DNA from: a virus
DNA: 57,923 nucleotides
Direction: 5' to 3' (one strand)
IMG/VR virus record: IMGVR_UViG_3300031565_000035
Location: 1-57,923 of that record
The translations under genes and the position numbers were made by a program. Positions 6,693 to 49,002 of this stretch are shown one piece after another (position 1 is the first letter of the stretch; each line of letters starts with the position of its first letter). The notes beneath the pieces were generated by a model. It was not told the DNA's origin and did no database searches. It was given only the letters and a program-made list of their open reading frames with translations.

Positions 6693-6697
6693 GACCA

Positions 6698-6973
6698 CTA
6701 GCCCCTGCGCGGGAGTTCAACTACGTTATCAACAGGCGAGACGTTTGTGCAGACAATAGCATCAAGCAGCTTGTAACAACGAGTTGCCAATCGAGTCCCT
6801 GTTCGCTTCTTGGTTGCCTCCATAGCACACTCGCGTAACAGCTTGATAGCTCGCTCAACCGACATCTTCTCACTCTTCGCGAGGTCATGGTCTTGCCAGC
6901 AACGATGTACGTAGAGATACGTCTCCAGTTCAGGAACAAGATCAGGGATAGAAACAAGGTCATCCGTCTTCAT
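6698..6973 (-). CDS. hypothetical protein
   Basis: 91 residues, helical, MKTDDLVSIPDLVPELETYL onward. The middle (KMSVERAIKLLRECAMEATKK) is an amphipathic helix. There is no recognisable domain. It sits between the DNA polymerase and QueE in one transcription unit; the ATG is at 6973. It may be an accessory to replication or base synthesis by position only. Confidence 0.6.
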   Translation of the reverse strand: MKTDDLVSIPDLVPELETYLYVHRCWQDHDLAKSEKMSVERAIKLLRECAMEATKKRTGTRLATRCYKLLDAIVCTNVSPVDNVVELPRRG

Positions 6974-6993
6974 GTGGCTCTGCCTTCAGTTAG

Positions 6994-9516: not shown

Positions 9517-10316
9517 CGGGCTGTGTCTCCAATCCAGTAACGGAACATGGAGATATTCGTGGTGATGCTATGATCATGCGCATCGCACATCTCCATGAGG
9601 GTGTCCCAGAAGTCTCCACGAGGACCATAGTCACGCTCCTCCTCAATAGTCAGCATGATATCAGCTAGCCCAGCTCGAACTGGAACCGCGGAATCGATCC
9701 CAGCAACTCCAGGCATACGAGCACAAGCGACGTCATCCAGGAGGTTGTCCGAGAAGCCAAGCAGATGGATCCGATCGAATAGAGGAGCGGAGATCATCTT
9801 ATGTACTACCTGCGCTCTGGTGCCGAATTGCTTCGTCAGTACCCGAGGGACACCGATGTGACGCACTAGAGGCAGCGTGTAATACAGGCTCGCCGTGTGG
9901 TAGCACTCCTCGAGAGACACTCCTTGGACAACACCCATTAGGATAATGTGGTCGAAATCAGGATTCCCTACAGCCGCCCCAGCGAACTCCTTGCAGAAGT
10001 CTGCTGCCAGCTCTCTGGTAGCAAACCCGTCACCCATTACATCAGGCATTACGAGACAGTCTGGCTTAACGATCTTGCAAGCCTCAAGAAGGTCTTTCAT
10101 TCCCATTGCCGAACCGAGTTCGACAACCGAGTTGTCCATAATGATGAATGAGTCCTTGTACAGCTTCCGGACACCATTGTTGTATATCTGGTTATACTCC
10201 CCAGGTTTGTCAAGCACATCGTGCGCCAGTATGAGATGATACGAACCGAGGTAGTCGATATCGTCCTGGAGCCACGCAGCGACTTCAGTGGGGACGACGG
10301 GAGCATAGTGCGACAT
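9513..10316 (-). CDS. dpdA: DNA guanine transglycosylase (TGT-like) that inserts a 7-deazaguanine
   Basis: 267 residues, related to tRNA-guanine transglycosylases but short and without the TGT zinc domain. Visible landmarks are LILAHDVL, IIMDNSVVELG, PDCLVMPDVMGDGF (D92), GVVQGVSLEECY, HIGVPRVL and GIDSAVPVR (D208), with Asp residues placed like the catalytic pair of TGT. DpdA proteins exchange guanine for preQ0 or a derivative in DNA. Its company (FolE, QueD, QueC, QueE) makes that assignment strong. First gene after the promoter at 10339-10383, and its stop overlaps the polymerase start. Confidence 0.88.
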   Translation of the reverse strand: MSHYAPVVPTEVAAWLQDDIDYLGSYHLILAHDVLDKPGEYNQIYNNGVRKLYKDSFIIMDNSVVELGSAMGMKDLLEACKIVKPDCLVMPDVMGDGFATRELAADFCKEFAGAAVGNPDFDHIILMGVVQGVSLEECYHTASLYYTLPLVRHIGVPRVLTKQFGTRAQVVHKMISAPLFDRIHLLGFSDNLLDDVACARMPGVAGIDSAVPVRAGLADIMLTIEEERDYGPRGDFWDTLMEMCDAHDHSITTNISMFRYWIGDTAR

Positions 10317-10338
10317 TCGAGAAAGCCTCCTTTCTATA

Positions 10339-10383
10339 ATTATAGCATACCTCGATATGGGTCATCAAGGGGCTTATGATGCT
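10339..10383 (-). promoter_or_regulatory. strong sigma70-like phage promoter with upstream element
   Basis: Minus-strand order: AGCATCA (10383-10377, one mismatch to ACCATCA), 8 bases, TTGATG (10368-10363), 18 bases with an extended TGC just before the -10, TATAAT (10344-10339). It starts five bases after the FolE stop and drives dpdA, the polymerase and queE. Confidence 0.78.
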
Positions 10384-10387
10384 CTTA

Positions 10388-11020
10388 TCAGGGTATGACG
10401 TGGTTCATCCTAACCAGCTCGAAGAACTCTGCTCGAGCCTGTGGGACATCCCGGAAGACCCCTCGAACCGTCGATGTGACAGTAGGTGTCTCATGCGCTA
10501 GTACGCCTCTTCCAGACATACAGCCATGGATAGCAGAAATGACAACCACGATACCTTTAGGCTTGACCAATTCCGAAAACTGGTCGGCGATGATATCTGT
10601 GCACGTCTCCTGCATCCGTGGCTTCTCACGACCCACAGCCTGTGCTAACCTAGTCAGTTTGGACAACCCAACAACACGATCGTTAGGAATGTAGCCGATA
10701 TGGCAGCGACCGATAACAGGAAGGAGATGATGTGGACAGATGGTATTCCATGGAATGTTCGTTTGAGCCACTAACCCCTTGTAGGAGTCATGTCCCCCCA
10801 CGGCATTCTGGTTTGCGAAGTCGATTCCCAGGACATCGGTGACGTCGTAGGGCTGAAGATACTCCTTCAGGTACCTGACGAAGCGGATATGAGTTTCACG
10901 AAAGTTCTCGTCCTCCAGGTCGATACCGAGGAGCTCGAGGACCTCTCGCATCTTATCAACCTCTGGACCGAGAACCTCCCAGAGCATCCCATCCATAGGT
11001 TCCTTAGCCTTTTTGGGCAT
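10388..11020 (-). CDS. folE: GTP cyclohydrolase I
   Basis: 210 residues from the ATG at 11020, which has GGAGGTGGCAA upstream and overlaps the queD stop by 17 bases; an upstream in-frame start at 11095 is less likely. FolE opens GTP to 7,8-dihydroneopterin triphosphate, the first step toward preQ0. Zinc and active-site segments are present: ICPHHLLPVIGRCHIGYIP (C95, H97, H98), QETCTDIIADQF and AIHGCMSGRGV. The length is normal for the family. Confidence 0.93.
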   Translation of the reverse strand: MPKKAKEPMDGMLWEVLGPEVDKMREVLELLGIDLEDENFRETHIRFVRYLKEYLQPYDVTDVLGIDFANQNAVGGHDSYKGLVAQTNIPWNTICPHHLLPVIGRCHIGYIPNDRVVGLSKLTRLAQAVGREKPRMQETCTDIIADQFSELVKPKGIVVVISAIHGCMSGRGVLAHETPTVTSTVRGVFRDVPQARAEFFELVRMNHVIP

Positions 11021-11510
11021 TTGCCACCTCCAAGGACTTCCTCTCGGACTCTCGAGCACGCGCCTTAATGCTTTCCAGAGCCTCGAGTGGTCCACTCCAA
11101 AGATAGGTAGCTCCGCACTTCCTGGTCTCTTCGACGGTACAGGAGATTAGGTTCACATCCGAATGCCGCAGCTGTAGTGGGCCGACAATCTCTACGAGAT
11201 GCTTAGCCATATTCTCAGCTGTCGGATTGAATGGGAGGATGACGAGAGTAGGATCCAAGTCGAATAGGGTAGTACCCCAATCGTCTTCTTGCCACAGAAG
11301 GAACTTGTGGTCCCAGTTGTCCTCCACCCACATACACAGCTCGGACTTCATGACGCTGAAGTCAATCACTCTCCCGACCTTATCGAGAGCTGGTACGGCG
11401 CACCTAAAATGGATGCGGTAGTTGTGGCCGTGAAGATGAGCACACTTGCTCTCGTGCCCAAAGACTCGATGCCCGCAAGAGATGTCGTGGTATCGCTCTG
11501 CTGTGATCAT
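11004..11510 (-). CDS. queD: 6-carboxytetrahydropterin synthase
   Basis: 168 residues. QueD converts dihydroneopterin triphosphate to 6-carboxy-5,6,7,8-tetrahydropterin. It begins with the family pattern DISCGHRVFGHESKCAHLHG, containing zinc-binding histidines (H14, H27, H29) and the catalytic Cys 23, and has RVIDFSVMK and NPTAENMAKHL typical of QueD. It lies between queC and folE with overlaps on the folE side, so these three are one operon. Confidence 0.92.
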   Translation of the reverse strand: MITAERYHDISCGHRVFGHESKCAHLHGHNYRIHFRCAVPALDKVGRVIDFSVMKSELCMWVEDNWDHKFLLWQEDDWGTTLFDLDPTLVILPFNPTAENMAKHLVEIVGPLQLRHSDVNLISCTVEETRKCGATYLWSGPLEALESIKARARESERKSLEVANAQKG

Positions 11511-11743
11511 TTCTTATCCTTCCTTTCCTTTTCCAGACGCGGAGCCCAAATCGCCCAATCTCGCATGGCCATATGAACTTGGACCGTCATCAGCTTAATC
11601 GAAAATCCTCCTACACCCATAAATCGGGGCATAAGAGGTACTGTTACCTTCGTCGGCTTTTCAGACGGCGTAGTGAGTGGGGTCGGGGAATCCGGCTTTT
11701 CGGAATCCGTCTTTTCTTGCTCGGCAGGTGGGACAGGTTCCAC
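11507..11743 (-). CDS. hypothetical small protein overlapping the end of queC
   Basis: Open frame from a GTG at 11743 (GAGGAG seven bases upstream) to 11507, overlapping the 3' end of queC by 83 bases in another frame and ending on the queD start (ATGA). The N-terminal 35 residues are Pro/Thr/Lys-rich, and the C-terminal part reads MTVQVHMAMRDWAIWAPRLE then a KERKDKK tail. A shorter version could start at an ATG at 11632. It accounts for the 150 bases between queC and queD, but nothing more specific supports it. Confidence 0.4.
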   Translation of the reverse strand: MEPVPPAEQEKTDSEKPDSPTPLTTPSEKPTKVTVPLMPRFMGVGGFSIKLMTVQVHMAMRDWAIWAPRLEKERKDKK

Positions 11744-12380
11744 AGTGAAGCTCCTCGCCTTTGTAACAGGACCATGTCAGGTGATAAGGAACTCCGAGCT
11801 TGATCCCAGCCAAGATGATGTCATCCTTGAACATCTCGATGAGCGGAGCACGAAGGCGGAGCGAATGATATGACCCGATGTACACAGCAGCTGCCATCGA
11901 GCCTACGAAATCGAACCTACAATCCGGATAAGCATCTCCGGCAGCATCTTCCGCATGCGCACCGAAGTACAATGTGCCCTTCCATCTTTCGTCCGTTCCG
12001 TAGAACTCCGACTTCTGGTTGTGTTGCTCGATGTCGTGAGCAGCTACTCCAGCTAGTCTTGAAATCAGCTGACCATTTCGGAATGGAACGTATGTTGGTG
12101 AAACCCCCTTAAGGTCCGCGTACGCAGCATTTGGTACTTCCGCTTCAGGATCCGTCAGCATGACTTTTGGAATACCCGGGAGCGCCAAGACTATGTGAGG
12201 AACATCGAAGTAGGCGGCAACCTTCTTTGCGTGATCCATTTCCTTAACGTGCCGCTGACCATAGTCGACGGAGTACGCCGTAACAAGAGGACGTCCGACC
12301 TCTCGTATAGCGAATCCCAGACAGGTAGATGAATCTACTCCGCCTGAGAGCAGTACGTAGGCCTTGGTAGTTGTGTCCAT
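11661..12380 (-). CDS. queC: 7-cyano-7-deazaguanine (preQ0) synthase
   Basis: 239 residues, full length for QueC. It uses ATP and ammonia to turn 7-carboxy-7-deazaguanine into preQ0. The PP-loop is LLSGGVDSSTC (residues 10-20), and the C-terminal zinc site is formed by C205, C213, C216 and C219 (HCGTCPTC). There is no N-terminal class II glutamine amidotransferase domain, unlike the Gat-QueC fusion linked to archaeosine in phage 9g. First gene of the queC-queD-folE operon; no consensus promoter seen directly upstream. Confidence 0.93.
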   Translation of the reverse strand: MDTTTKAYVLLSGGVDSSTCLGFAIREVGRPLVTAYSVDYGQRHVKEMDHAKKVAAYFDVPHIVLALPGIPKVMLTDPEAEVPNAAYADLKGVSPTYVPFRNGQLISRLAGVAAHDIEQHNQKSEFYGTDERWKGTLYFGAHAEDAAGDAYPDCRFDFVGSMAAAVYIGSYHSLRLRAPLIEMFKDDIILAGIKLGVPYHLTWSCYKGEELHCGTCPTCRARKDGFRKAGFPDPTHYAV

Positions 12381-25058: not shown

Positions 25059-26174
25059 TTAGTTTAGGAACTCGACTAGCTGTCCCAGTTGTACGATGTC
25101 GTTATCACTGGTTGCTTCGCCAGTGCACTTGATCGTAATGGCAGCTCCATCATCCTGCGTAGCGGTACCGGTTTCGATATCGATAGCACTGGCGGGAGTA
25201 GTCTCGAACACGTTCAACTGAGCGACGTAGTCCTGCGTATCTGTTCCTGTAGAGAATACCTCAGCGACAGCCCTCCAAGCACCGTCGATACTAACGGTGA
25301 AGGCATATGTCAAGATGACTTGCGAGCCGAAGTAGATCTTCAGCGTCTTGGTATCCGCATTGTTGGGGAAGGTGCCCCAAGCTGTGATACGGACTCCCTT
25401 ACCTGCTACACTCATTGCATCGGCAGGTAGGCTGTAAGTGATGAGGTCGTCCTCTCCTACACCGATGTTTCCGACCTGCGTAGTATCGACACTAGCCTTC
25501 AAGACAGCGAAGGCTCCGATGTTAGCTGCGCCGATCTCGAAAGCAACCGGTTCAGCTTTCACGTCCGTGTTATTCACGTACAAGTACATCGTAGCCCCTC
25601 TCGGGATCACGATTCCTGTTTGACCATTCACTAGGACCGTAAGAGTGAAGTCGCCGGTCGTATTGTTGAAGACGACGTAGTCCCAGACAGCTGAAGGAAC
25701 CTCCACAGAGCGATTGCCTGATAAGGCTCCAGTGAACTCAAGGATCTTGACTCGGGCTTCGTCGTCTGTCAGAGTAACGGCGCCAGAACCGCCTATGGCT
25801 TTGGATAGCCGCGATTCCATTACCCGGATGCTCCAAGGACGCCAGTCGGTAATAGTTGAGACGACCCCGCCAGCAGCGACGATCACATAGAGCGGAATCT
25901 GCCCAGCAGTAAAGCCACTCGTGTTGACACTAATAGTACCTGCGCGATCGACCTCGACGTAGTTCGTAGCATTGGTCAGAGCGACACTGCTATTGCTCTT
26001 TAAGGTAGGTACACCATCGACGTAAATGTAGCCCCCGAAGTACTGGTGCGTCAATCCAGCAGACGTAGTGTAGTTACGAGCAAATATCCCTGCCCATTGG
26101 AGGGTAGTGAGGATCTCGTTGATCGTGGTGGTTTTGCCTGCCTGAGCTTCTGTCAGTTGGGTAAGAGTGGTCAT
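25059..26174 (-). CDS. tail fibre / receptor-binding candidate
   Basis: 371 residues, beta-rich and low in Cys, last gene of the tail block. An N-terminal helical region (MTTLTQLTEAQAGKTTTINE) is of the kind that docks to the tail tip, followed by YVEVDRAGTISVNTSGFTAG, VSTITDWRPW and many short beta strands. Genes in this position, after the central hub protein, usually encode the adsorption fibre. No enzymatic motif seen. Confidence 0.6.
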   Translation of the reverse strand: MTTLTQLTEAQAGKTTTINEILTTLQWAGIFARNYTTSAGLTHQYFGGYIYVDGVPTLKSNSSVALTNATNYVEVDRAGTISVNTSGFTAGQIPLYVIVAAGGVVSTITDWRPWSIRVMESRLSKAIGGSGAVTLTDDEARVKILEFTGALSGNRSVEVPSAVWDYVVFNNTTGDFTLTVLVNGQTGIVIPRGATMYLYVNNTDVKAEPVAFEIGAANIGAFAVLKASVDTTQVGNIGVGEDDLITYSLPADAMSVAGKGVRITAWGTFPNNADTKTLKIYFGSQVILTYAFTVSIDGAWRAVAEVFSTGTDTQDYVAQLNVFETTPASAIDIETGTATQDDGAAITIKCTGEATSDNDIVQLGQLVEFLN

Positions 26175-36906: not shown

Positions 36907-37373
36907 TTGAACACTCCCGTGTAGTGTAGTAGAATACTGGTTAGAAAGTTGTCCATCTCCTCTTCGAGCGCTGCCTGGAGATATTTGCTGCGCGTAGGAG
37001 GTTCGTGATTAACATACACCAGCTCGTGGACTAGCGCAGCATACCAAGCAGACGTGCTGCCGTATGTGATCTCACCTTCGATCCGACCATTATCTAGCTG
37101 GTTAATGTTCATCTCGGCGCTCTCAGCAAGGAGACCTGTTGCCTTTGGTACGTACTCTTGACTCTTGTCAAATACCGGCTCCAGCGCATCGTATATGGCC
37201 TCAGGTGTGACACCCTGGAGGTGCTTAATAAAGCCGTCGTACCGCTGGATAATAGCCGCCATGTCCGCTTGAGCAGTCTTAGTCGTTGCCTTCCTGAAGA
37301 AGGCTGGGCTACCCGCTCGTACACGGCCAGGCAGCCGCCCGAAGTTGGCCTTGAAGCTGGTAGCCTTAGCCAT
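36903..37373 (-). CDS. HK97 gp10-like head-tail joining protein
   Basis: 156 residues. LEPVFDKSQEYVPKATGLLA then ESAEMNI and YAALVHELVYVNHEPPTRSK match HK97 gp10-like proteins, whose conserved features are a Gly-Leu with later YA..VHE..... motif and a C-terminal helix. It takes part in joining head and tail. One base from the neighbours on both sides. Confidence 0.8.
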   Translation of the reverse strand: MAKATSFKANFGRLPGRVRAGSPAFFRKATTKTAQADMAAIIQRYDGFIKHLQGVTPEAIYDALEPVFDKSQEYVPKATGLLAESAEMNINQLDNGRIEGEITYGSTSAWYAALVHELVYVNHEPPTRSKYLQAALEEEMDNFLTSILLHYTGVFK

Positions 37374-37708
37374 TACAGAACTGCCCTTCTCATCGGGTTA
37401 AGATTCCTGAGATCCGGTATCTTATCGAACCTCTGCACTTTGAAGGCACCGGCAAACAGTGATGGGTCACCGGCGTCAGTTGTTCCTAAGTATAGCCAGT
37501 CACCGGTAGCGACGTCACGGTCAACAAAGACCACGGCGTTGCTGATTAGCTCCCGACGATCAAGCTGACCATAGTACACTTCTTTCCGGTCCTCCCAACG
37601 AACTTTGACCGCAATAGCGGGCCCGAAGGTGTCGCCACCGTAGCCATCAGGGGTGACTGCCCACCAAGTGGCATCCTGTTTCAAACCGCGAGTGACGACG
37701 TGTACCAT
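37373..37708 (-). CDS. head closure (stopper)-like protein
   Basis: 111 residues, a small beta domain. KVRWEDRKEVYYGQLDRREL followed by VVFVDRDVATGDWLYLGT resembles head-tail stopper proteins (SPP1 gp16/HK97 gp9-like) that plug the portal. Its position among tail completion genes agrees. No catalytic residue expected. Confidence 0.65.
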   Translation of the reverse strand: MVHVVTRGLKQDATWWAVTPDGYGGDTFGPAIAVKVRWEDRKEVYYGQLDRRELISNAVVFVDRDVATGDWLYLGTTDAGDPSLFAGAFKVQRFDKIPDLRNLNPMRRAVL

Positions 37709-38019
37709 TAGGCTAACCTCTCTCTTACGGACAGTCTATGCTCATGGATGGATGTAACTACCGTCGCATCCGCTAGAGTAACCGTGACCTCATACCGCAT
37801 CATCGGAGCCTCCAGCTCGTCAGTCTGGAATTCGTACTCGACGACACCATTTATGGCATCAACGATTGTCATTGCTTTCTCGACCGCAGCGGCAGTTCCA
37901 ACTTTCCACCGGAGCGTAGCTGAGCCTCCAGTGAGGTTGATCACCCCACCGCTTTTCTTCGTGCAGGTGACGCGCAGGATGATTTTAGCGTCCTGCGAAA
38001 CCGCGTCGTGGTGTGCCAT
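37708..38019 (-). CDS. small beta-sandwich structural protein
   Basis: 103 residues. DAKIILRVTCTKKSGGVINL, GGSATLRWKVGT and GVVEYEFQTDELEAPMMRYE show alternating strands as in BppU N-terminal or Ig-like domains of phage structural proteins. It sits between the giant repeat protein and the head closure gene, so may connect the repeat protein to the virion. Inference beyond the fold. Confidence 0.55.
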   Translation of the reverse strand: MAHHDAVSQDAKIILRVTCTKKSGGVINLTGGSATLRWKVGTAAAVEKAMTIVDAINGVVEYEFQTDELEAPMMRYEVTVTLADATVVTSIHEHRLSVRERLA

Positions 38020-38021
38020 TT

Positions 38022-41000
38022 CTAACTCCCGCTTAAAGTGATAGTCTGTTTAATTCCGGGGTCCGCTCCGTCGTACTGGTCGAAGGTAACCTCGTTAACT
38101 GGTAGGGCAGGATCAGCAAATATCATGCCCTTAACAATGTCGGACGCGAAGTCCATGTCTACATACACTATTACGTCGACTGGCGTTACGTAAGCGACTG
38201 GAGCTAGACCGGTAATCCGGAGATGATCGACGTACGGGAGAGCCTTTCTATCGCCCGTGACGAGCAGTTCGGGTACATATGCGACGAAGCTTAAGGCCCC
38301 AGCGGGGACTTTGAAGACGCGTGCTATTTCTACTGGCTGTCCTGTGAGGGCTAGCGTATCACTTGCAGGATAGAACCTGTGGTCTATTACGATATTCGGC
38401 TGCTGGCCTGTAATAGCCAGGATATCCCTGTCTGGACCGAGCTGTAGATTGTTGCTAGTAGATGGTACTGGATTGTACCCGGCGAATGTAATACTACCTG
38501 TATCCGGGAAGTTAACCCAGGAGTCAGATAGCTCGAGTACAGGTATCTGACCTGTAATGTTCGCAGTACCAACTCCCGGCAGCTCCCAGACGCCTTCTGT
38601 GCGGAATAGTACTGGTTCCTGACCAACGATGGAAAGAACATCTGTCCCAGGACTGGCGAAGACTTCTCCGGCCGTTGATGGTGTAAATCCGGTAAGATCA
38701 AGAGTTCCAACTCCTGGTGCTGGATATTGGTGTTCAGTCCGAGCAACTACAGGCGTCTGACCAACTAGGTCTAAAATGCCATTATCAGGTATGCGGACGA
38801 TACCAACACCAATCGTCGGCGCAAGTCCTACTATGTTTAGAACGCCAGCATCAGGCTGTGCGTCTCGATTGTCCGTTACTACGACTGTACTAACGGCTCC
38901 ACTCAGCGATAGCGCGCCGTCGCCCGGGGCTACATACTGGTTCTCAGTACTAGCCGCAACGGGTATTTCGCCGGTAATAACAAGAACACCCGCACCAGGT
39001 TGTTCCGTTACTCCCGTGGTCGCATTGACCGCTGGGATTTCACCTGTCAGCGCTAGTGTATCCTCTCCAACGGCGATCGTATAGTCGATCTCCACACTAG
39101 GCTGCTCGCCCGAGATGGAAAGCACATCATTAGGTACAACGAACCTGTAGCTAATCTCAACCGAGGGTGCTAGGCCTGTAATAGCTAAGGTGCCTGCATT
39201 CGGCTGAGCCGTCCGGTCATCTCCCGACTGGGCAATCGGTACCTCACCCGTAAAGACCAGCGCATCGTTAGCCGGCGAGAAGACGTAGTCGATTCCTACG
39301 CTCGGCTGTTGGCCTGTGAGGGCTAGGGTATCTTCTCCCGGCTGACGAATAACGCCGATAGCTACAACTGGGACGAGACCCGTAAAGTCGAGGGTGTCTT
39401 CGCCCGGAGTAAAGGTGTAGCTTACATCGTTGCTAGGCTCCTGACCTGTGAACGCGAGTGCAGCTACTCCTGGGAATGTGTAGAGCTGGATCGTGCATAG
39501 AGGTGTGAGGCCGGTGAGCGATAGTGTATCTTCTGCCGGTGTGAAGCGATAGCTAACCTCGACCGATGGGACGAGGCCTATAATCTGGAGTACATCTTCA
39601 TCCGGCTGGGATGTTTGGTCATCTCCGGATTGCGATACGGGGATACGACCAGTGAAGGCCAAACTACCAACCGGCACTTCAATGGTGTAGTCAATTTCCG
39701 CACTTGGTTGTTGACCAGTTAGCTGGAGGGCCCCGGCACCCGGAGTATAGACGAGGCCCTGGGAGACAATGGGTTGCTCGCCTACGAGGAGGAGGGTGTC
39801 AGGGCCCGGAGCGACCAGGAGATTAACCGAAGCTGTGGGCTGCTCTCCTGTAATCTGTAGGGTATCTTCAGCAGGCTTGAAGGTATAGCTGATCTCGATA
39901 CTAGGCGCGAGACCTGTGATAGCTAGTGTACCAACGCCTGGTTGTGGGAAAGCCCCTTGTCCGGCTTGGACAACAGGAACTTCACCAGCAATAACTAGTA
40001 TATCTTCAGCAGGCTCGAATACCTTGTCGAACGACTGGACGTCTACTACTGGGATCTGGCCAGTAAGGACGAGGGTATCTTCGTCCGGAACAACAATCTC
40101 ACCGACTAGTAAGGACGGGATCTCCCCTGTGAAGGCCAGCGTATCCGGAGCCACCCAGAACACCTGCTCCGTCGAGTTGATAGACGGGAACGCCAACGCG
40201 GCGATAGTCGTGAAGCCCTCAGATCCGGAGACTGTATTGTGGATGGTAGATAGACCGTCGGCGGGCGGGTACTCCCTTATGAAGGACGAGTAGGTGTGCT
40301 CGTACCCGTCCCAGTGGGGGTCGTTGTAGGCGTCGAAGCCGTCGAAGGTGAAGGGCCAGTACCTAGGTCCTGAGTTTGCCTGTGCTATTACGTGCTGATT
40401 CGACCCTGCAGGAGCGACGTCAGTAAACCCGTACCACCCCACTATCCCGGCCACGACCAGATCGTCGGACCTCGAGGCGATATCTACCGACCCTGCCTCG
40501 CCCGGGAAATAGCCGTGGCGGTCAAAAGCTACTCCGCGCGGGGCAAAGGTAGGGTGAGTACCCGAGTAGAAGGCTACGTGGATGTGGGGCGACTGCGAGA
40601 TCGGGACGTTGTACGACACAGCCAGATCCTGCGCACCGGTGGGCGGACTGCGTAGATACGCTATATACGGACCCCAAAAAAGAACCACCAGCGCCCCATC
40701 AAGGGAAGCCGTCTCCAGAGCTTGGCCGCCGAGCGAAATACCCGTGACAGAGATATTTTCTACCGCGTTATACTGGGCGGAGAAGACAATCGCTAGAGTC
40801 GTACCAACCGGCACCGTGACGGACTTGGTAACCGTGACAGGAGCTCCGGGGACTACGCCGGTAGCCTCATCAACGAGGATTAGCTCGAGACATTGGTCAA
40901 TTAGAACCGTGCCGAGCAGCGTGAACGTACTGACAAACACCGTCGGGATCGCCCCTGCGATAGCGAGAGCAGCATCGACAGGAGCTACGACGGACGGACC

Positions 41001-44000
41001 CGCCTCCGAGACGACGACGTCCGAGGATATTCCGAGTATCCCGGCATCCACAGGTATCGTCAGAGCTACTCCTGTGGTGACAATTGTGGGAATCTCCCCG
41101 GTGAAGGTAGCTACAGCCGTAGCCGGTCCGTATAGGAACCTGTCCTGATCGTTCGCTCCGCGCAGCGACAGCACAACTAGCTGCGTGTAGTCTGCTACAC
41201 CCTTCATGGTGGAGGTGGTACTACCGGGGGCGTCTACCACACCCACGGTGATACCACCCGACTCTCCACCACGGTCAAGAGTCGGGCCGGTATGGCTTAT
41301 CTCCGTCTGTCCGGTGTACACCTCGTCTGTGAGGATATTCTCGGTGACACTAGGACGCAGGTCGTAGTCGTTCCAGACCCAGCTATAGGACGTGAGAAAC
41401 CCGCAGACCAAGTCAGTAGCGCGCGAATCGACGGTCGCTGCGACCTCCACCCATAGATCAATAAGCACCTCGTCGTTGGCATACGACACATCGCGAACGA
41501 CAACACCGTCCTTGCGCATACCTGCGTAGAACAGATATGTCACCTCGTCTGGATAAATGAGATCCCACGACGGGTCTGAAATGTGGTAGCTACTATTCCA
41601 CGTGTATGCCAGAGTCTGTGGCCCCGGTGCGGGGTTGAGTAAATAGCTTATCCAGATGCTGGTTGCATACCCGATCTTAGTAACGATCTCGCCATTCAGT
41701 ACACCACTACCAGTCTGGGGCAGATTGGCAATGTCCAGCATGTCCTTTCCGCCAAGAACGGCTGCGCCCTCTCTCTTTAAACCTGCGGTAAAGTAGTTCC
41801 ACGAAGACACAGCCACGATAACTAGCTCGGTGCCCTCTGGAATATCTACGGTGTCGCTCTGAGCGAGGGACTGCTGACGAAGAGCCGTGGTATACGTACC
41901 AATCAGCGTCGGCTTGATATACGGCTGCCGTTGTGTGATATTGAGAGCACCTACTCCGGGCGAGAGGAAATAGCTGATCCCAACCGAGGGAGCCAACCCG
42001 CTGAAGGCAAGTGTATCTTCAGCAGGGCTTAAGGTATAATCGAGCTCAACACTGGGTACTTCACCAGTGAGGGCAAGTACGTCTTCCGCCGGAGCAAACC
42101 GATAGCTGATCTCTACAGTGGGTATTTCTCCTGTCAGTGCTAGCGTATCTTCGCCTGGCCGCACGCGCTCGCCAACCAGCGAGACTGGTATCTCCCCAGT
42201 AAGGACTAAGGTGTCCTCAGCAGGCTCCGTAATATAGATGATCCCGACGTCAGGAGCATAACCCGTGAGTGTGAGAATACCCTCGTCAGGCTTAACAACG
42301 GGGGCGGCGAGTACAGTTGGAGCAAATCCCGTGAAGACTAGTGTACCCTCGCTTGGCTGAGATGGCTGCAGCAGGAGCGATGGTGCCAGGCCGGCGAAGA
42401 GTAGAGTATCCTGAGCGGGGGATATCGAAGTTAGATTGATACCGACTACAGGAGTTTGTCCAGAGATGTGTAGCGACTCTACGACGAGCCGCATAGTGGT
42501 ATTCGTGTTGGTAACCTGATTCCACGCCCCGCTGGGGAATCCCCTCGTGTGGTAGCCAGGGAATGTCTTTGGCTGCCACACATACATCGTGAGGTGGTCG
42601 CCAACGCCGGAACCGGTGAACTCCACCACTATGGCGTACGGCGTGTTTGGCTCGAGTCTGTACCCAGCGAAGTCAAATCGGAATGTATTCGCGGATAAAG
42701 ATATGTCTGTGGCAGCGTCGAAGGTATTCGTCGACGAGGCGAGCGGAGACGCACCGTTAGCGGGGTTAGCGGTTAACGCGTCGAAGTCCCCCGTGTCGGC
42801 CGCGTACAGGCGCGCGATAACAGTTCCTACAGGCCCTCCGTTCTTCGCCAGCAGGAAGTCCACGCGGCGCAATATGCCGCCCTCAGGACTACGAAAGACC
42901 TCACCGCGGCTGTCTATACCTATAAAATTAAAGAAGCCGACTGTCTGCGGATGCAGTATAAAATCGTGCTCGGCAGCATCGGGGAAGACGTACTTGTCCT
43001 TGAAGTCCAGAGTAGGTGCGTAGGTGGCGAGTACGAGATCAGCCTTATCCACCGCAATGTTGGGGTGCAAGCTGTCCGATAGTGTCGGAGCTAGCCCTTC
43101 AATCGTAATAGTGCCAGCGCCTCCTACAGGAAGAAGCTCAGTTACGACCAGCCTGGGCAACTGCCCCATGATGCTCAGCCCGCGGACGAAGACGAGCATC
43201 TCGGTGCCGTCTGAAGTAGCCGGCTGTGTACCTGAATCCCACCCTCCGAAGGATGGATACCAGCTAAACGGATCGTCAGGCTCTGTGTACTCTATAATCT
43301 GCTGGTAGCCGCCTATAGCGTTCGGATTTCTATTGAAGAATATCTGGGTCTCAACGTAGTTGTCGGGGTCGCCGTCGTTATAGGTAGCTACAAACGCGTA
43401 AATACCGGGGGGCAGAACCTCGCCGGCGAAATCTAGCGTGTACAGTGTAAGCGTGCCGGTGAGAGTAGACACGTCCAACGTAGTGGTAGATGTGGCAACC
43501 GGGCTGTCTAAGTACGCCGGGTAATAGCCGACATAGCTATTACCCTCGTTGCAGAGGTACACCTCTATGACGAGGTTCCCTGTGGGAGATCCTTCCTTCC
43601 TGAGGTTGAAGTCTACATGATCGAGCACGATAGGCACGCTGACGGGAAACACCGTGCCCTCTTTGGTAAACGTGCCCTCGAGGGGGAGCCCGAAGGTGCC
43701 AATATCCACAGCGCCCAACTTCTGGACAACGGGCACTCCCGGAGTGAAGACCACTCCTATGACGATGGAGGGTACTAATCCTCCGAATGCGAGTACGTCC
43801 TCTGCAGGGGCACGCGTGATATGATCGGACAGAGCAAGAGTCGGTACCAGACCGACTAGAGCTAGAGCGCCGTCGTCGACGGCGATACTCGAGGCTACGG
43901 ACACAGTCGGCGCCCAGCCGGTGATAGCCGCGGAGCCCGCGTCGACGGCAATACTCGAAGCTACGGACGCAGTCGGCGCATGACCGACCAGAGTAAGTGC

Positions 44001-45245
44001 ACCTGCGCCGACGGGTATGTTCTCCCCGGCGGAGATCGTGACCTGCGGCGTCTGCGTGATCGTGTCGGCAACTTCACCGTCATACAGGACTCGGAAGTCG
44101 TATTGAACCGCGCGCGAGTTGACCTTCGCCTCAATCGACCACACGTCCTCGCGGTTGCCGTTGTTGGCAACGTCAGTATTCGTGGTCGATGGGTTCTGGG
44201 CCGCCGTCTCCTCGATTCGGCCACCGCCGAACGTGCCGGACATTCCAGTGAGGCGCTGCGTCGTCGTACCTGGGGTCGCTGCCCCCAACACCATCTGGAA
44301 GCCTTGCGGGCGGTGCAGCGTGATCGCCGCAGACCCGTACTCGTCAGAAGCATCCGTCAGGATGATGACGAACCGCTGCCCCGGCCCCAGTGTATGAAGG
44401 CTGGCGAGTTCTCCGGCGGACAACTGCGTGAGATCGAGGTTGACCTGCGTGTCGGACCACGTATTGACCGCGCTGGTGATGTCTACCTCATTCGCGCTCC
44501 CCGCGAGGGTGTTGGCATCCGACAGGTAGACCGTGGCTGAGCCTTGCGATGCTCCGAAGTTCAGCCCATCGACATCGACATCGGCCGTGTCCATGTCGAA
44601 CTCGGACGGCACGACACCTGTGATTCCCTCCGCCGGCAGGTTCGCAAGGATCAGTGCGCAGCCCGCTCGCCGGTTGGCCGTAGTCCAAGTGCCTACGTAG
44701 TTTTCCGCCGCGCCGGTCGTGACCTCCTCATCAGCAAGCGAGCCAGTCGTAGTCGCACCAACGTCAACTTGCTCGGTCTGCTCGGTAACTCCGCCAGACC
44801 ACGCGACCGTACCAGAGTTGCCCATGCCGCCGAGACACACCGCAACCGACGTGTCTGACGACGTGATGTCGAGGGTGGTAGTACCCGCCCCGGTCGAGGC
44901 GTGTGTGTCGGTGACCGTGGGCGTGGTTTGTACGCAGTTCTCATACGAAGCTGCATTGATCGTGAACGCCGCAGGCTCGCCCGTGACGACAATCGTGGTG
45001 CCGCTCGCCGCTTGAATGCCGGCGTCATTCAGAAAGAACAGATCAACTCGCTGGTCGGTGGCATCACCCACCGCGATCCCAACGACATGCGTCATCGACT
45101 GACCGCCGTAGGCAACGGTCGGCTGCGATGGACTTGCAACCTCCTGCGTAATCCCGACGATTAGGCAGCGATTGTTTCCCGCGCTAACCGAGTAGCTGAA
45201 GCTATCGGTATTGCTTGATGCGGCGGTGTTTAAGCGAACGGCCAT
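38022..45245 (-). CDS. giant repeat-containing virion surface protein
   Basis: 2407 residues, the longest gene here. Layout: residues 1-205 a beta domain (CLIVGITQE; AYGGQSMT); 206-310 TIG-like; 311-405 another beta domain; then five blocks (about 405-502, 700-752, 940-1115, 1375-1445, 1698-2356) of a 22-24 residue repeat with consensus PaeDtLalTGeiPsV, nearly 50 copies in all; two jelly-roll-like inserts (503-695 and 753-935) and two more copies of the first domain (about 1115-1370 and 1446-1695). The C terminus (about 50 residues) is unique and is the likely anchor. ATG overlaps the upstream stop (TAATG). It is probably a long fibre or capsid/tail whisker; no enzyme motif seen. No frameshift is needed. 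Confidence 0.75.
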   Translation of the reverse strand: MAVRLNTAASSNTDSFSYSVSAGNNRCLIVGITQEVASPSQPTVAYGGQSMTHVVGIAVGDATDQRVDLFFLNDAGIQAASGTTIVVTGEPAAFTINAASYENCVQTTPTVTDTHASTGAGTTTLDITSSDTSVAVCLGGMGNSGTVAWSGGVTEQTEQVDVGATTTGSLADEEVTTGAAENYVGTWTTANRRAGCALILANLPAEGITGVVPSEFDMDTADVDVDGLNFGASQGSATVYLSDANTLAGSANEVDITSAVNTWSDTQVNLDLTQLSAGELASLHTLGPGQRFVIILTDASDEYGSAAITLHRPQGFQMVLGAATPGTTTQRLTGMSGTFGGGRIEETAAQNPSTTNTDVANNGNREDVWSIEAKVNSRAVQYDFRVLYDGEVADTITQTPQVTISAGENIPVGAGALTLVGHAPTASVASSIAVDAGSAAITGWAPTVSVASSIAVDDGALALVGLVPTLALSDHITRAPAEDVLAFGGLVPSIVIGVVFTPGVPVVQKLGAVDIGTFGLPLEGTFTKEGTVFPVSVPIVLDHVDFNLRKEGSPTGNLVIEVYLCNEGNSYVGYYPAYLDSPVATSTTTLDVSTLTGTLTLYTLDFAGEVLPPGIYAFVATYNDGDPDNYVETQIFFNRNPNAIGGYQQIIEYTEPDDPFSWYPSFGGWDSGTQPATSDGTEMLVFVRGLSIMGQLPRLVVTELLPVGGAGTITIEGLAPTLSDSLHPNIAVDKADLVLATYAPTLDFKDKYVFPDAAEHDFILHPQTVGFFNFIGIDSRGEVFRSPEGGILRRVDFLLAKNGGPVGTVIARLYAADTGDFDALTANPANGASPLASSTNTFDAATDISLSANTFRFDFAGYRLEPNTPYAIVVEFTGSGVGDHLTMYVWQPKTFPGYHTRGFPSGAWNQVTNTNTTMRLVVESLHISGQTPVVGINLTSISPAQDTLLFAGLAPSLLLQPSQPSEGTLVFTGFAPTVLAAPVVKPDEGILTLTGYAPDVGIIYITEPAEDTLVLTGEIPVSLVGERVRPGEDTLALTGEIPTVEISYRFAPAEDVLALTGEVPSVELDYTLSPAEDTLAFSGLAPSVGISYFLSPGVGALNITQRQPYIKPTLIGTYTTALRQQSLAQSDTVDIPEGTELVIVAVSSWNYFTAGLKREGAAVLGGKDMLDIANLPQTGSGVLNGEIVTKIGYATSIWISYLLNPAPGPQTLAYTWNSSYHISDPSWDLIYPDEVTYLFYAGMRKDGVVVRDVSYANDEVLIDLWVEVAATVDSRATDLVCGFLTSYSWVWNDYDLRPSVTENILTDEVYTGQTEISHTGPTLDRGGESGGITVGVVDAPGSTTSTMKGVADYTQLVVLSLRGANDQDRFLYGPATAVATFTGEIPTIVTTGVALTIPVDAGILGISSDVVVSEAGPSVVAPVDAALAIAGAIPTVFVSTFTLLGTVLIDQCLELILVDEATGVVPGAPVTVTKSVTVPVGTTLAIVFSAQYNAVENISVTGISLGGQALETASLDGALVVLFWGPYIAYLRSPPTGAQDLAVSYNVPISQSPHIHVAFYSGTHPTFAPRGVAFDRHGYFPGEAGSVDIASRSDDLVVAGIVGWYGFTDVAPAGSNQHVIAQANSGPRYWPFTFDGFDAYNDPHWDGYEHTYSSFIREYPPADGLSTIHNTVSGSEGFTTIAALAFPSINSTEQVFWVAPDTLAFTGEIPSLLVGEIVVPDEDTLVLTGQIPVVDVQSFDKVFEPAEDILVIAGEVPVVQAGQGAFPQPGVGTLAITGLAPSIEISYTFKPAEDTLQITGEQPTASVNLLVAPGPDTLLLVGEQPIVSQGLVYTPGAGALQLTGQQPSAEIDYTIEVPVGSLAFTGRIPVSQSGDDQTSQPDEDVLQIIGLVPSVEVSYRFTPAEDTLSLTGLTPLCTIQLYTFPGVAALAFTGQEPSNDVSYTFTPGEDTLDFTGLVPVVAIGVIRQPGEDTLALTGQQPSVGIDYVFSPANDALVFTGEVPIAQSGDDRTAQPNAGTLAITGLAPSVEISYRFVVPNDVLSISGEQPSVEIDYTIAVGEDTLALTGEIPAVNATTGVTEQPGAGVLVITGEIPVAASTENQYVAPGDGALSLSGAVSTVVVTDNRDAQPDAGVLNIVGLAPTIGVGIVRIPDNGILDLVGQTPVVARTEHQYPAPGVGTLDLTGFTPSTAGEVFASPGTDVLSIVGQEPVLFRTEGVWELPGVGTANITGQIPVLELSDSWVNFPDTGSITFAGYNPVPSTSNNLQLGPDRDILAITGQQPNIVIDHRFYPASDTLALTGQPVEIARVFKVPAGALSFVAYVPELLVTGDRKALPYVDHLRITGLAPVAYVTPVDVIVYVDMDFASDIVKGMIFADPALPVNEVTFDQYDGADPGIKQTITLSGS
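38180..40155 (-). repeat. largest block of the 22-24 codon tandem repeat
   Basis: About 29 consecutive degenerate repeats at the 3' end of the giant gene. Each encodes Pro, a short acidic/Gly stretch, L.ltG, a one- or two-residue turn, then P.v and a variable strand. Units differ at many synonymous and non-synonymous positions, so it is an old, diversified array rather than a recent expansion. Confidence 0.85.
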
Positions 45246-45511
45246 TACGGTGTCCAGCTCTCGTCAGCGCGTTCCCAGTAGCTCTGAGCGTTTAGGTCTT
45301 TGCGGTGGTCCCACTGCTCGATGTTCTTCACGTTGTTGATGTTTCGCTTGCCGCCGGGAGCGTTGGGGTCGTCGATCGTCAAATGCTCGGTGCCGTTCCT
45401 GTCAGTTTCAACAACGACACGAATGACACCTGCATACCGAATGGGGTCGTTCGAGGCCACGTCCCACTCGTAGTACCAGATTGGCTCGTCTTTTTGTGTC
45501 TCTTGGCCCAT
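45245..45511 (-). CDS. hypothetical protein
   Basis: 88 residues from ATG 45511, which overlaps the upstream stop (TAATG); its own stop overlaps the giant gene's start in the same way. MGQETQKDEPIWYYEWDVAS then AGVIRVVVETDRNGTEHLTI indicates a small acidic beta-rich protein. The tight coupling suggests it works with the surface proteins on either side. Confidence 0.65.
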   Translation of the reverse strand: MGQETQKDEPIWYYEWDVASNDPIRYAGVIRVVVETDRNGTEHLTIDDPNAPGGKRNINNVKNIEQWDHRKDLNAQSYWERADESWTP

Positions 45512-46386
45512 TACGGCACCTTGCGCCACTCGCTCGCGGCGTCCGATGTTTCCTTGTATTGCAACTCGGCCGAGATCGCCGGGGCATCACCCGTCATCTG
45601 TCCGCCGACTCGGAGGTGGAACGTCGTCTCCTTTCCAATGCCGAGATCGACGTTCTGCGCTTCAAGCGCCGTCGAGCCAGACTCGGTTCCGTCGTCGTAG
45701 AAGCGGAAGCTATCCTGCTCGGTCGTGTATGCGACAGCGGGACGAAGCGCGACTGTGGTGCACACCCACTGTTCGGTACCAGATGTAAACGCAGGCGGAT
45801 TCTCTGGATCAGCGGCCGGCGTCAGATCGTAGGCACACGCAAGCGAACCTCCATTACCTCCGCCGTTGGCAACGATGTCGCCCAGCGTGTCGGGATCGGT
45901 GTAGCCAGATGGAACGGAAGTGAAGTCACCACCTGCCGAATCCCATACAGCGGAAACGACAATCGTTGCACCAGCGTCCAGATAGTCGATCGAGCCGGGG
46001 TCCGCGTTTGTACTGTCACCTGTGGCCGTGACCGTGGTGACATCAATCGGTGTCGTCGTATCGACTCCGGTGAACGCGAGCATCTTTCCGCAGATACCCG
46101 TAGAACCGAATGACGGGGTAATCGTGTAGCTTGCAGGCTCGCTCGAAGCAATGCGCCACCAGACCGTTATCCCCGGCGGAGAAGGCGCGGCACCTCCGGT
46201 CAACACGTTGTTGACGATCTGGTTCCAGCCGGTGAGCGTGTTGAAGCCACCGTCGTCGCCATCGGCTGTTACGCCGTACAACAATAACAGGTCATCGTCC
46301 TGCACACCGGCAGGAACGTTGACAGCGAGACTAGCTGCTGCCGCTCCCGTCCCGGCTTCGGTGGATGATCTGAAGGCGATAGCCAT
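45511..46386 (-). CDS. beta-rich surface protein sharing a domain with the giant protein
   Basis: 291 residues. Residues 1-215 (LAVNVPAGVQDDDLLLLYGV, SEPASYTITPSFGSTGICGK, MLAFTGVDTTTPIDV) resemble the domain found three times in the giant protein. The C-terminal domain (SFRFYDDGTESGSTALEAQN, then LQYKETSDAASEWRKVP) is of a type common at the ends of phage and bacterial surface proteins. No transmembrane segment. It heads a three-gene TAATG-coupled operon. Confidence 0.65.
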   Translation of the reverse strand: MAIAFRSSTEAGTGAAAASLAVNVPAGVQDDDLLLLYGVTADGDDGGFNTLTGWNQIVNNVLTGGAAPSPPGITVWWRIASSEPASYTITPSFGSTGICGKMLAFTGVDTTTPIDVTTVTATGDSTNADPGSIDYLDAGATIVVSAVWDSAGGDFTSVPSGYTDPDTLGDIVANGGGNGGSLACAYDLTPAADPENPPAFTSGTEQWVCTTVALRPAVAYTTEQDSFRFYDDGTESGSTALEAQNVDLGIGKETTFHLRVGGQMTGDAPAISAELQYKETSDAASEWRKVP

Positions 46387-46515
46387 ACGTTACCGTTCGA
46401 GAGGTACCTTAGCTGCCGGCATGATCTTGGTCCCGTATGTCTGTTCAGTGTGCGTTAAAGTTCGGTTCCGTCGTTTAGCGTACTAGCGTACTATGTCGCC
46501 GTACTAGTCGAGAAA

Positions 46516-46538
46516 CCGAGGAGCAATATGCCCCTCGG
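46516..46538 (-). terminator. probable intrinsic terminator
   Basis: Minus-strand stem CCGAGGGGC / GCTCCTCGG (nine pairs with one G-U, five-base loop) followed by TTTCTCG. It lies immediately after the gene ending at 46556 and upstream of the surface-protein operon. The T-run is short, so it may only attenuate. Confidence 0.55.
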
Positions 46539-46555
46539 TGCCCGAATGCTCGCTG

Positions 46556-46990
46556 CTACGCCAGCGTGAAGATCCCGTTCGCGTGCATCTGGATCGTCAG
46601 CGTGTTGTTCTGCGTCAGCGCGAACGCCGCTGCAGTCAACTTCGACCAGCATACCGCTTGGCCGGCTGAGTTCTTGATCAGCGCGAACATGATGCTGGTG
46701 ATATTGCCACCAGTTGCTGTCCAGAGAGGATCGGCAGCATCGAACTTGTACTGACCTGCTGACGCTCCAACTACCCAAGACCGAGTCAAGAGCGATTGCC
46801 CGCCCGTGACGTAGCCGTTGGCGTTGTTTACCTCGTTGGTGACCGAGGCAGCCGTGGATAGCGTCGCGACCGACGCGTTCGAGGTGCTCTTGTGCAGCTG
46901 CACCTTGAAGATATCGGTGCCCAGCTGAATGACACCATCCCCGATTTTGCGCTTCGCTTGGTTGTATACCGCCCATGCTGTTGCAGCCAT
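46556..46990 (-). CDS. structural protein, probably virion surface
   Basis: 144 residues. TAWAVYNQAKRKIGDGVIQL then GTDIFKVQLHKSTSNASVAT and TSIMFALIKNSAGQAVCWSK match a common phage family of unknown detailed role, found among head and tail genes and often fairly abundant. A terminator follows it. No enzymatic motif. Confidence 0.6.
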   Translation of the reverse strand: MAATAWAVYNQAKRKIGDGVIQLGTDIFKVQLHKSTSNASVATLSTAASVTNEVNNANGYVTGGQSLLTRSWVVGASAGQYKFDAADPLWTATGGNITSIMFALIKNSAGQAVCWSKLTAAAFALTQNNTLTIQMHANGIFTLA

Positions 46991-46996
46991 CTTTCC

Positions 46997-48610
46997 TTAC
47001 TCCTTGTCAGGTAGTTCCGCGCCCGTCTTGATGATGTGCGCGATAAGGCCATCTCCATGGACGGCTAACTCAACCTCGTTCCCCATGAACTTCACCTGGT
47101 CCATGAACTCGTGTGCTTGAGAGACCATCCACGTGTTGCAGTAGAAGATCCTTCCGCCACAAGTAACCTTGACCACGCTTTGTCCGTCGTTTTCCTTCTG
47201 TTCGTAGGCGTGATGTCCATACTTGGAAACTGCTACATTCGGCACTCCGAAATCGTTCGATAGAGTGTCCGAAGCCTGTTGCGCTTCTTCCTTGGTATTG
47301 TACTCGAGGATATGCCCAAGGGTGTCGTGCTTGACTAGTGAGCCATCAGCCTGTTGGCATACCCAGCTCTCCTTCAGGCAGGAGTCGAAGCCATAGAGCT
47401 CTTGACGCCATACACCGAGCATACGTAGCAGGACGATAGTACGAAGGACTACTGTGGAACCGCCGGGGACGTAGAACCAGGCGCCTTCTCCGTAGTGCTC
47501 GTTCAGAGGGGCAGCTAGTTCCTCGTTATCGACGCAGTGCCAGATGAGCCCCTTACCCTTCGGAACCATATCGAAGGTTGCTGGGTCGCAGTGGCTCGCG
47601 ATGAAATAGTGGCAGTTCTCGACGATTGGCTCCAGGAATCGCTTGTTGAACTCTCGACCGTCCAGCATAACCTGAGCAGAGGGGACCATCCCGTGGTCTA
47701 GGGCCCATTTGTAGGCGCCATTAACGGTTATGAGGGAATGTCCCCCTTCACGCTTCTGCCGGATTTCGTCTGCATAATCGTTCAGGGATGGGCCACCACA
47801 CAAAACCAGAGCGGGGCGATCCTGACGATCGTGAGGGATCATCTGAGGCCAGCCTCGCTTGGTGCTGAGCTGGATGTTCTCGATGAGCTTTTCCTTAACC
47901 GTGTTCAAGGTGCCGCGGATGGCGATCTCTCTGGCGCTATTCCACGCCGTAGCGTAGAGCATCACGCAGTTGTCGTACTCCTTGTACCAGTTAACTTGGG
48001 CTCCCAAGTTCCGGAACTTCAAGGACCACCAAGCAGGCGGCTTGACTGTAAGGTGGAGTTTCTCGCCGATTAGCACTCCACAGGCATCATCGGTGGTACT
48101 GATTTGGAAGAACACGTACTCCGCGGCCTTCATGATGTTCTTGAGCACGATCTCCACCTTGTCTTCGGGGATGTGCTCCATCACATCGGTGCAGAAGCCA
48201 TATTGTGCAGCAACAGGCAGCGGCTTTTCGAGGTCTGCCTGGATGAATTTCAGCGTGTCACCCTGATTCGATAGAGCCTTGTAGACGAAGGGATCGAGGC
48301 AATTGATGGCGAAATCCACCAGAGTTACCTTGACTTTGCCGAACATCGCGAGCGCGATAGCTCCTCGTCCAGTACCGCAACCGAAGTCGATGACATGAGC
48401 CCCAGCAGGAGGACGCGCTTCAGCCAGGAAAAGCTGAGCACAGTTTTCGCCCGGAGCTACTGCCCGATATTGCTCGTGGGCCCACATCTTCTCGTACTTC
48501 AACTGCTCTGGATTGCCGAACAGCTGACCATTCCCCTTTTTCGGCGGAGCTGGTTGTATTAGAACCGTCGGGGCTCGCCCGATGAAACTACCGCGTGCTG
48601 TACCTGTCAT
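46997..48610 (-). CDS. methyltransferase fused to DUF115-type domain
   Basis: 537 residues. The N-terminal half is a class I SAM-dependent methyltransferase: motif I AHVIDFGCGTGRGAIALAMF (residues 71-90), an acidic VTLVDFAINCLD, and YGFCTDVMEHIPEDKVEIVL typical of small-molecule or glycan methyltransferases. The C-terminal half (from about residue 265) has PALVLCGGPSLNDYADEIRQ and GGHSLITVNGAYKWALDHGM, the DUF115/Maf-like Rossmann domain seen in sugar-transfer and pterin-pyrophosphokinase-like proteins. It lies within the virion-structure genes, so it could modify a virion protein or cell surface component; inference. Confidence 0.8.
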   Translation of the reverse strand: MTGTARGSFIGRAPTVLIQPAPPKKGNGQLFGNPEQLKYEKMWAHEQYRAVAPGENCAQLFLAEARPPAGAHVIDFGCGTGRGAIALAMFGKVKVTLVDFAINCLDPFVYKALSNQGDTLKFIQADLEKPLPVAAQYGFCTDVMEHIPEDKVEIVLKNIMKAAEYVFFQISTTDDACGVLIGEKLHLTVKPPAWWSLKFRNLGAQVNWYKEYDNCVMLYATAWNSAREIAIRGTLNTVKEKLIENIQLSTKRGWPQMIPHDRQDRPALVLCGGPSLNDYADEIRQKREGGHSLITVNGAYKWALDHGMVPSAQVMLDGREFNKRFLEPIVENCHYFIASHCDPATFDMVPKGKGLIWHCVDNEELAAPLNEHYGEGAWFYVPGGSTVVLRTIVLLRMLGVWRQELYGFDSCLKESWVCQQADGSLVKHDTLGHILEYNTKEEAQQASDTLSNDFGVPNVAVSKYGHHAYEQKENDGQSVVKVTCGGRIFYCNTWMVSQAHEFMDQVKFMGNEVELAVHGDGLIAHIIKTGAELPDKE

Positions 48611-48624
48611 GACTGTCTCCTTGA

Positions 48625-49002
48625 CTATATGACTAAGAATCGTGCATCTTGCTTGTTGGGGGTTGCTACATTTGCCGCCACTCTTGCGAGTGTCAGTGTC
48701 GTATCTAACGTAATGGCCATCTGTCCGTACTTCGTGGAAGACAAGCCAGGACCAAAGATATCGTGATACCGCTCGGTAGCTTCACCGATAGTCTGAGCCG
48801 CAAGTGCACCATCTTTGGTTTGCAGCTCGTAGACATGGGCAGCTAGGAAGAGCTCGATATTGGTAAGGACTACTTCAGACAGGCCCAGAGTTGACGGTAA
48901 CATCTCGTCAACCATAGCCCCGGCAATATCCATCGCTAACGCTACGTCAGCATTGGGAACCTGAATAAGGTTCTGAACCTGAGCTTCTGCCGTTCTTGGC
49001 AT
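48625..49002 (-). CDS. head-tail connector (adaptor) protein, DUF4054-like
   Basis: 125 residues, all helical: AMDIAGAMVDEMLPSTLGLS, VLTNIELFLAAHVYELQTKD and YGQMAITLDTTLTLARVAAN. Pattern (N-terminal helical hairpin, later Tyr/Gly-rich turn then LDTT) fits DUF4054-type adaptors (gp6/gp15-like) that bind the portal. Genes flanking it are head structural. Confidence 0.7.
   Translation of the reverse strand: MPRTAEAQVQNLIQVPNADVALAMDIAGAMVDEMLPSTLGLSEVVLTNIELFLAAHVYELQTKDGALAAQTIGEATERYHDIFGPGLSSTKYGQMAITLDTTLTLARVAANVATPNKQDARFLVI

Follow-up and report, generated by a model that had tools for sequence, protein, structure and literature searches.

What does a protein of 2,407 residues, built largely from short tandem repeats, do among the head and neck genes of a virus? 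The gene lies in a 57.9-kb virus record, which we analysed over its whole length (the window), and its product is here called P0001. A sequence-only reading had regarded it as a virion protein, possibly an extended whisker or fibre on the head or neck. Our analysis makes it fairly probable that P0001 serves a virion fibre apparatus as its repeat shaft and adhesin, and that it is carried in an exchangeable fibre cassette.

Repeat anatomy and domain map of P0001

The gene occupies 38022..45245 on the minus strand as an exact ORF with an ATG start, and the position and length given by the sequence-only reading, which named no strand, are correct to the residue. That reading had counted nearly 50 degenerate repeats of 22-24 residues in five blocks, which agrees with the iterated unit HMM: 43 units score above 5 bits (46 including partial ones), in blocks of 4, 2, 9, 2, and about 29 units, with a spacing of 21-25 residues (mostly 22 and 24) and the consensus xP(G/A)EDTLALTGExPSVxIxx. 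Among 100 shuffled versions of P0001, no score exceeded 6.2 bits, and a shuffled protein had 0.01 units on average. When 36 units are aligned, G11 is present in all (36/36), P14 in 34/36, L7 in 32/36, and D or G at position 5 in 34/36. The identity between units is 29% at codon position 3, i.e., near random, 54% at positions 1 and 2, and 37% for the amino acids; because third positions are near random while the other two positions and the residues are more alike, the units seem to be ancient and maintained by selection acting on the protein.

Counted from the N terminus, residues 1-205 form a domain predicted as beta (44631..45245), in which residues 15-104 are weakly similar (HHalign prob 34) to a domain at the C terminus of Estave1 gp20, a mycobacteriophage protein; a second domain follows (residues 206-410, 44016..44630), part of which matches proteins that locus L114 encodes upstream of its repeat gene. 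The unit HMM then places block 1 (4 units, residues about 411-500, 43746..44015), block 2 (2 units, about 687-722, 43080..43187), block 3 (9 units, about 919-1104, 41934..42491), block 4 (2 units 48 residues apart, about 1373-1440, 40926..41129), and block 5 (about 29 units, about 1697-2352, 38190..40157), and between them lie the spacer domains J1 (43188..43730), J2 (42492..43010), D1 (41130..41900), and D2 (40176..40916), all of these on the minus strand. J1 is a duplicate of J2, residues 506-686 and 746-918 matching one another in HHalign (92.7%). The blocks had been described as split by jelly-roll-like and other beta domains; predicted beta domains do lie between them, but the jelly-roll assignment found no Pfam or PHROG match, and none of the spacers falls into a family recognised by these two collections.

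No Pfam or PHROG family covers P0001 or its repeat, and an NCBIfam scan likewise gave nothing useful. Searches of PDB sequences with the repeat, with P0001, and with the BppU_N-like neighbour described below returned chance-level matches or none, and a literature search for the letters of the repeat motif returned no relevant paper.

Predicted structure of the repeat unit

Structure prediction of consecutive units had been suggested as a check on an ordered repeat. Six units of block 3, modelled with AlphaFold2 as a single chain from 77 aligned rows, gave one beta-hairpin per unit and no predicted helix, but with confidence that is only moderate (mean pLDDT 66, pTM 0.58). Fold matches of this model are at chance level, several of them being beta-solenoids; the best PDB match has an E-value of 0.25 and prob 0.21. 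Given this modest confidence, ordered stacking of the units is a proposal, in which each 22-24-residue unit would be a beta-hairpin whose scaffold, P..(D/G).L.(L/I/F).G..P, is fixed and whose variable residues directly follow the second proline. Stacked units would make up a shaft that is lengthened or shortened by entire units and along which the spacer domains may serve for binding. The phi29-type head fibre (gp8.5), which the title of the cited work defines by supercoiled helix-turn-helix repeats, differs from this helix-free model.

TGxxP-repeat proteins in other phages

The only phage records found by tblastn are 13 mycobacteriophage records, in which the genes are mostly annotated minor tail protein, a term to be read as an annotation label. 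A scan of IMG/VR with the whole protein gave no relative, and we therefore adopted a DNA pattern for two tandem units, which matches more than 119 stretches in IMG/VR; a scan of the genome collection yielded only 11 stretches, some of them probably chance matches. IMG/VR holds 90 proteins with at least three units, which reduce to 70 non-redundant ones, so that the repeat, which the sequence-only reading had suggested looking for in other phages, is found there as well as in mycobacteriophage proteins. P0001, with its 43 units above 5 bits, has the tandem 22-residue units with a G..P and L.L/I/F core by which the family is defined. It is a member of a family of phage repeat proteins, here termed TGxxP, that is widespread and has so far gone undescribed.

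The F-cluster mycobacteriophage proteins Estave1 gp20, Avani gp26, and Soul22 gp26 have units of ~22 residues of the TGGxP type, like those of P0001. Estave1 gp20 combines its units with a beta-rich domain (C-terminal in gp20); it is 315 aa long, has few short TGGQP units, and is encoded downstream of other minor tail genes; moreover, the phrog_644 gene (see below) adjoins the repeat gene downstream in Estave1, whereas it lies upstream in the window.

The C-termini of the repeat proteins of L009, L014, L025, L036, L055, L056, L057, L105, and L115 carry a basic linker, an acidic stretch, and a short hydrophobic end, e.g., DEEAIMLLMAA, which P0001 does not have. The repeat proteins of L012, L022, L023, L073, and L097 carry at their C-termini another short repeat, roughly 12 residues long (NWxxIDDSQTPNW).

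Variation of the arrays among close relatives

The flanking proteins of L012 and L097 are 98-99% identical, whereas identity falls to 83% in their repeat proteins, where the alignment has gaps of exactly 44 and of 22 residues; arrays gain or lose whole units, one or two, in close relatives, an observation made in relatives rather than in the window phage. When L012 is compared with L073, changes cluster at unit positions 15-18, which follow the second proline (changed in 42-58% of units), T1, P2, and G11 are unchanged, and dN/dS of the repeat protein is 0.2 versus 0.04-0.1 in neighbour genes. The TGxxP family moves between phages in fibre-like cassettes and probably forms flexible adhesive virion fibres. 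This unites many unannotated phage genes under one testable idea, a fibre module that shifts between the head and the tail region and gains or loses entire units.

Insertion of the locus between adaptor and neck genes

The late genes of the window, including that of P0001, are all on the minus strand and follow the order terminase, portal, protease, decoration, capsid, adaptor, 10.9-kb block, neck, tail terminator, tube, chaperone, tape measure, and GTA-type baseplate (siphovirus genes). The repeat gene had been placed between capsid and tail-completion genes, and a protein of this size had been called unusual there. Gene-order annotation confirms the first point, with P0001 between the capsid/adaptor and neck genes. 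The second stands as well because relatives keep the adaptor and neck genes adjacent: this is the case in MaInes and StAshley, two Brevundimonas phages, as well as in L029 and in nearly all IMG/VR sister loci in which both genes were found. By gene-order comparison, the 10.9-kb block (37709..48624) is absent between these genes in relatives; it is flanked upstream by a head-tail adaptor-like gene (48625..49002) and downstream by the neck gene (37373..37708, with a weak head-tail adaptor PHROG match), all on the minus strand, and its GC content is 56.6% versus 52-53% elsewhere in the window.

Two further sister phages have cassettes with MptE-like and methyltransferase/glycosyltransferase-like enzymes at or near the adaptor-neck site. 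In L155 (11554-17698), a different enzyme set, including MptE-like proteins, comes directly after the adaptor; in L156 (11275-14603), the enzyme cassette is located between capsid and adaptor.

Sister phages (L138, L145, L147, L149, L150, L152) encode 14-22 tandem 21-residue units, GTxAxTExxDTxAxSGKVxxx, followed by Gp77. Their repeat proteins are like P0001 in belonging to the late head module, in having tandem units with a DT.A.SG motif, and in having beta-sandwich proteins adjoining or fused; they are unlike it in the unit, which the P0001 unit HMM does not cover, in the Gp77 gene that comes next, and in their site between portal and protease. HMM cross-searches between the two units were negative, and HHalign gave prob 10.8 versus 0.9 for the reversed control; the sister protein thus appears analogous to P0001, not demonstrably homologous. 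L029 combines a capsid module of the sister type with a TGxxP repeat protein and an MptE-like gene that lie upstream of the protease, Gp77 being the next gene.

The putative phrog_644 partner

The gene order in the window is MptE, phrog_644, beta-sandwich, giant repeat protein, and BppU_N-like protein. The phrog_644 protein (46556..46990, minus strand; AlphaFold2 pLDDT 93), for which no Pfam family match was found, is a putative fibre-attachment partner. In 43 of the 70 non-redundant loci, its gene is found upstream of the repeat gene and in the same orientation, and 26 of the 70 show no phrog_644, many loci being truncated; the background by single-sequence tblastn is 191 of 50,697 phage records. 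No phrog_644 was labelled in 19 sister loci.

In BFVD, the phrog_644 model matches a structural protein from Agrobacterium phage 7-7-1 (502 aa, TMq 0.78), a minor tail protein of a mycobacteriophage, and many tail-collar fibre proteins (Foldseek prob 0.9-1.00, but with a low TMq of 0.36-0.54 and E-values no better than 3e-3); among PDB entries, the HFTV1 tail comes first (prob 0.97 in spite of an E-value of 0.11). By its length, the 7-7-1 protein is gp107, the only one of 502 aa among the 7-7-1 structural genes read, and gp107 residues 370-476 match the phrog_644 HMM. Mass spectrometry found gp107 in virions, with 18 unique spectra (PMC3517404), so that virion presence is proven for one relative of the partner; this concerns the partner and not P0001. 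It is likewise the fold of the partner, not P0001, that gp107 and the tail-collar fibre proteins resemble, and the 7-7-1 fibre-region proteins that were tested have no P0001-type units. The idea of a fibre module offers a likely role for phrog_644, which PHROGs lists with unknown function, and for a repeat outside Pfam and PHROGs.

Next to phrog_644-fold gp107, the MS-detected gp108 of 7-7-1 (L157 9297-10319) has short W-Y-P-x-Y repeats of its own and a basic C-terminus. It is a possible analogue of P0001 and a possible candidate for the 7-7-1 capsid fibres, which are 88-114 nm long and of unknown composition (PMC12796354).

Other neighbours in the cassette

Downstream of P0001, a 103-aa BppU_N-like protein (37708..38019, minus strand) is a possible fibre adaptor; its Pfam match (E 0.0022) is below the Pfam cut-off, and Pfam does not call it Gp77. 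Genes for Gp77 (PF23148), the family of the fibre-tail adaptor gp77 of podophage GP4, are often found downstream of the repeat gene, adjoining it in L029, L049, and L061 and near it in others, whereas the window neighbour weakly matches BppU_N instead. A Gp77-like domain is also located inside the repeat proteins of L094 and L072, as seen by iterated HMM; Pfam does not call it.

A 291-aa beta-sandwich-like protein (45511..46386, minus strand) matches in HHalign (90%) a domain that L009/L147 carry at the N terminus, fused to their repeat arrays. We also considered a relationship of this beta-sandwich to the N-terminal domain, D1, and D2 of P0001, and the comparison failed to link them.

The protein at 46997..48610 (minus strand), a putative modifying enzyme, has a methyltransferase and an MptE-like domain (PF01973, Pfam), the latter from the family to which Maf proteins belong. 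The MptE-like domain is thus what it has in common with Maf/MptE-like proteins, while it is methyltransferase-fused and phage-borne. Maf enzymes glycosylate flagellin (PMC7874193, PMC11339370). An MptE/Maf-like gene is upstream of the repeat gene in 16 of the 70 loci. From its family, the enzyme may modify the fibre or its sugar, and the linkage raises the possibility of fibre glycosylation. We rejected the idea that this protein begins with one repeat unit (MTGTARGSFIGRAPTV..., window 48536-48610), which scores only 3.7 bits (E 1.1); its homologues start otherwise.

Possible sites of P0001 on the virion

We infer from this linkage that P0001 is a virion protein of the fibre type: the fibre-like fold of phrog_644, the Gp77/BppU_N-like neighbours, and the minor tail annotation in mycobacteriophages all point to the kind of protein proposed earlier, and phrog_644 and the BppU_N-like protein probably help attach P0001 to the particle. 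Head or neck siting as such is not supported: since the family occurs in head and tail modules alike, the place of the gene does not tell where on the particle the protein is attached.

A side fibre or adhesin of the tail or baseplate would suit the mycobacteriophage homologues among minor tail genes, the possible tail-collar fibre fold of the partner, and the BppU_N/Gp77-like neighbours. We regard it as plausible while giving it somewhat less than even weight, for the window encodes a separate, megatron-like GTA-type baseplate and another fibre gene (25059-26174), and the cassette is inserted in the head-neck operon. That insertion, between adaptor and neck genes, would instead favour a whisker, i.e., a long flexible fibre anchored at the neck or capsid, as would the sister phages with their repeat protein in the head module beside a Gp77 adaptor and phage 7-7-1, which has a phrog_644-fold virion protein and bears capsid fibres of 88-114 nm (PMC12796354). 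The family also points to candidates for those flexible fibres of the capsid or neck that still lack an assigned protein. However, the same family is found in mycobacteriophage tail modules, phrog_644 resembles tail-collar fibres, and gene position is weak evidence because the cassette moves; we consider the whisker possible, at slightly less weight than the tail or baseplate fibre.

It seems unlikely that the TGxxP units and the 21-residue units of the sister phages represent a single design of fibre shaft, not described before, in two versions. In that case, movable cassettes would bring an anchor of their own (phrog_644, Gp77/BppU_N) together with a Maf-like enzyme dedicated to modification, the shaft would be glycosylated, unit number and variable residues would be tuned by recombination, and the products would be long flexible head/neck fibres like the 7-7-1 capsid fibres.

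P0001 could also act outside the virion, as a late product on or secreted by the host or working in the cell; its virion presence is deduced, and the neighbouring methyltransferase/MptE-like enzyme is not structural. Yet the gene is embedded in a structural operon, the partner is related to an MS-detected 7-7-1 virion protein, and no secretion signal was noticed by eye in the N-terminus, making such a role very improbable. A neutral array expanded by slippage or recombination, with no structural role, would fit the whole-unit gains and losses in relatives, but saturated third positions under a motif that is held, dN/dS of 0.2 between relatives, and the presence of the family across many phages leave it next to no weight.

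Elsewhere in the window, positions 5895-12380 read, by sequence alone, as QueE-, QueD-, FolE-, and QueC-like genes together with a possible transglycosylase (9513-10316), a set that suggests 7-deazaguanine DNA modification.
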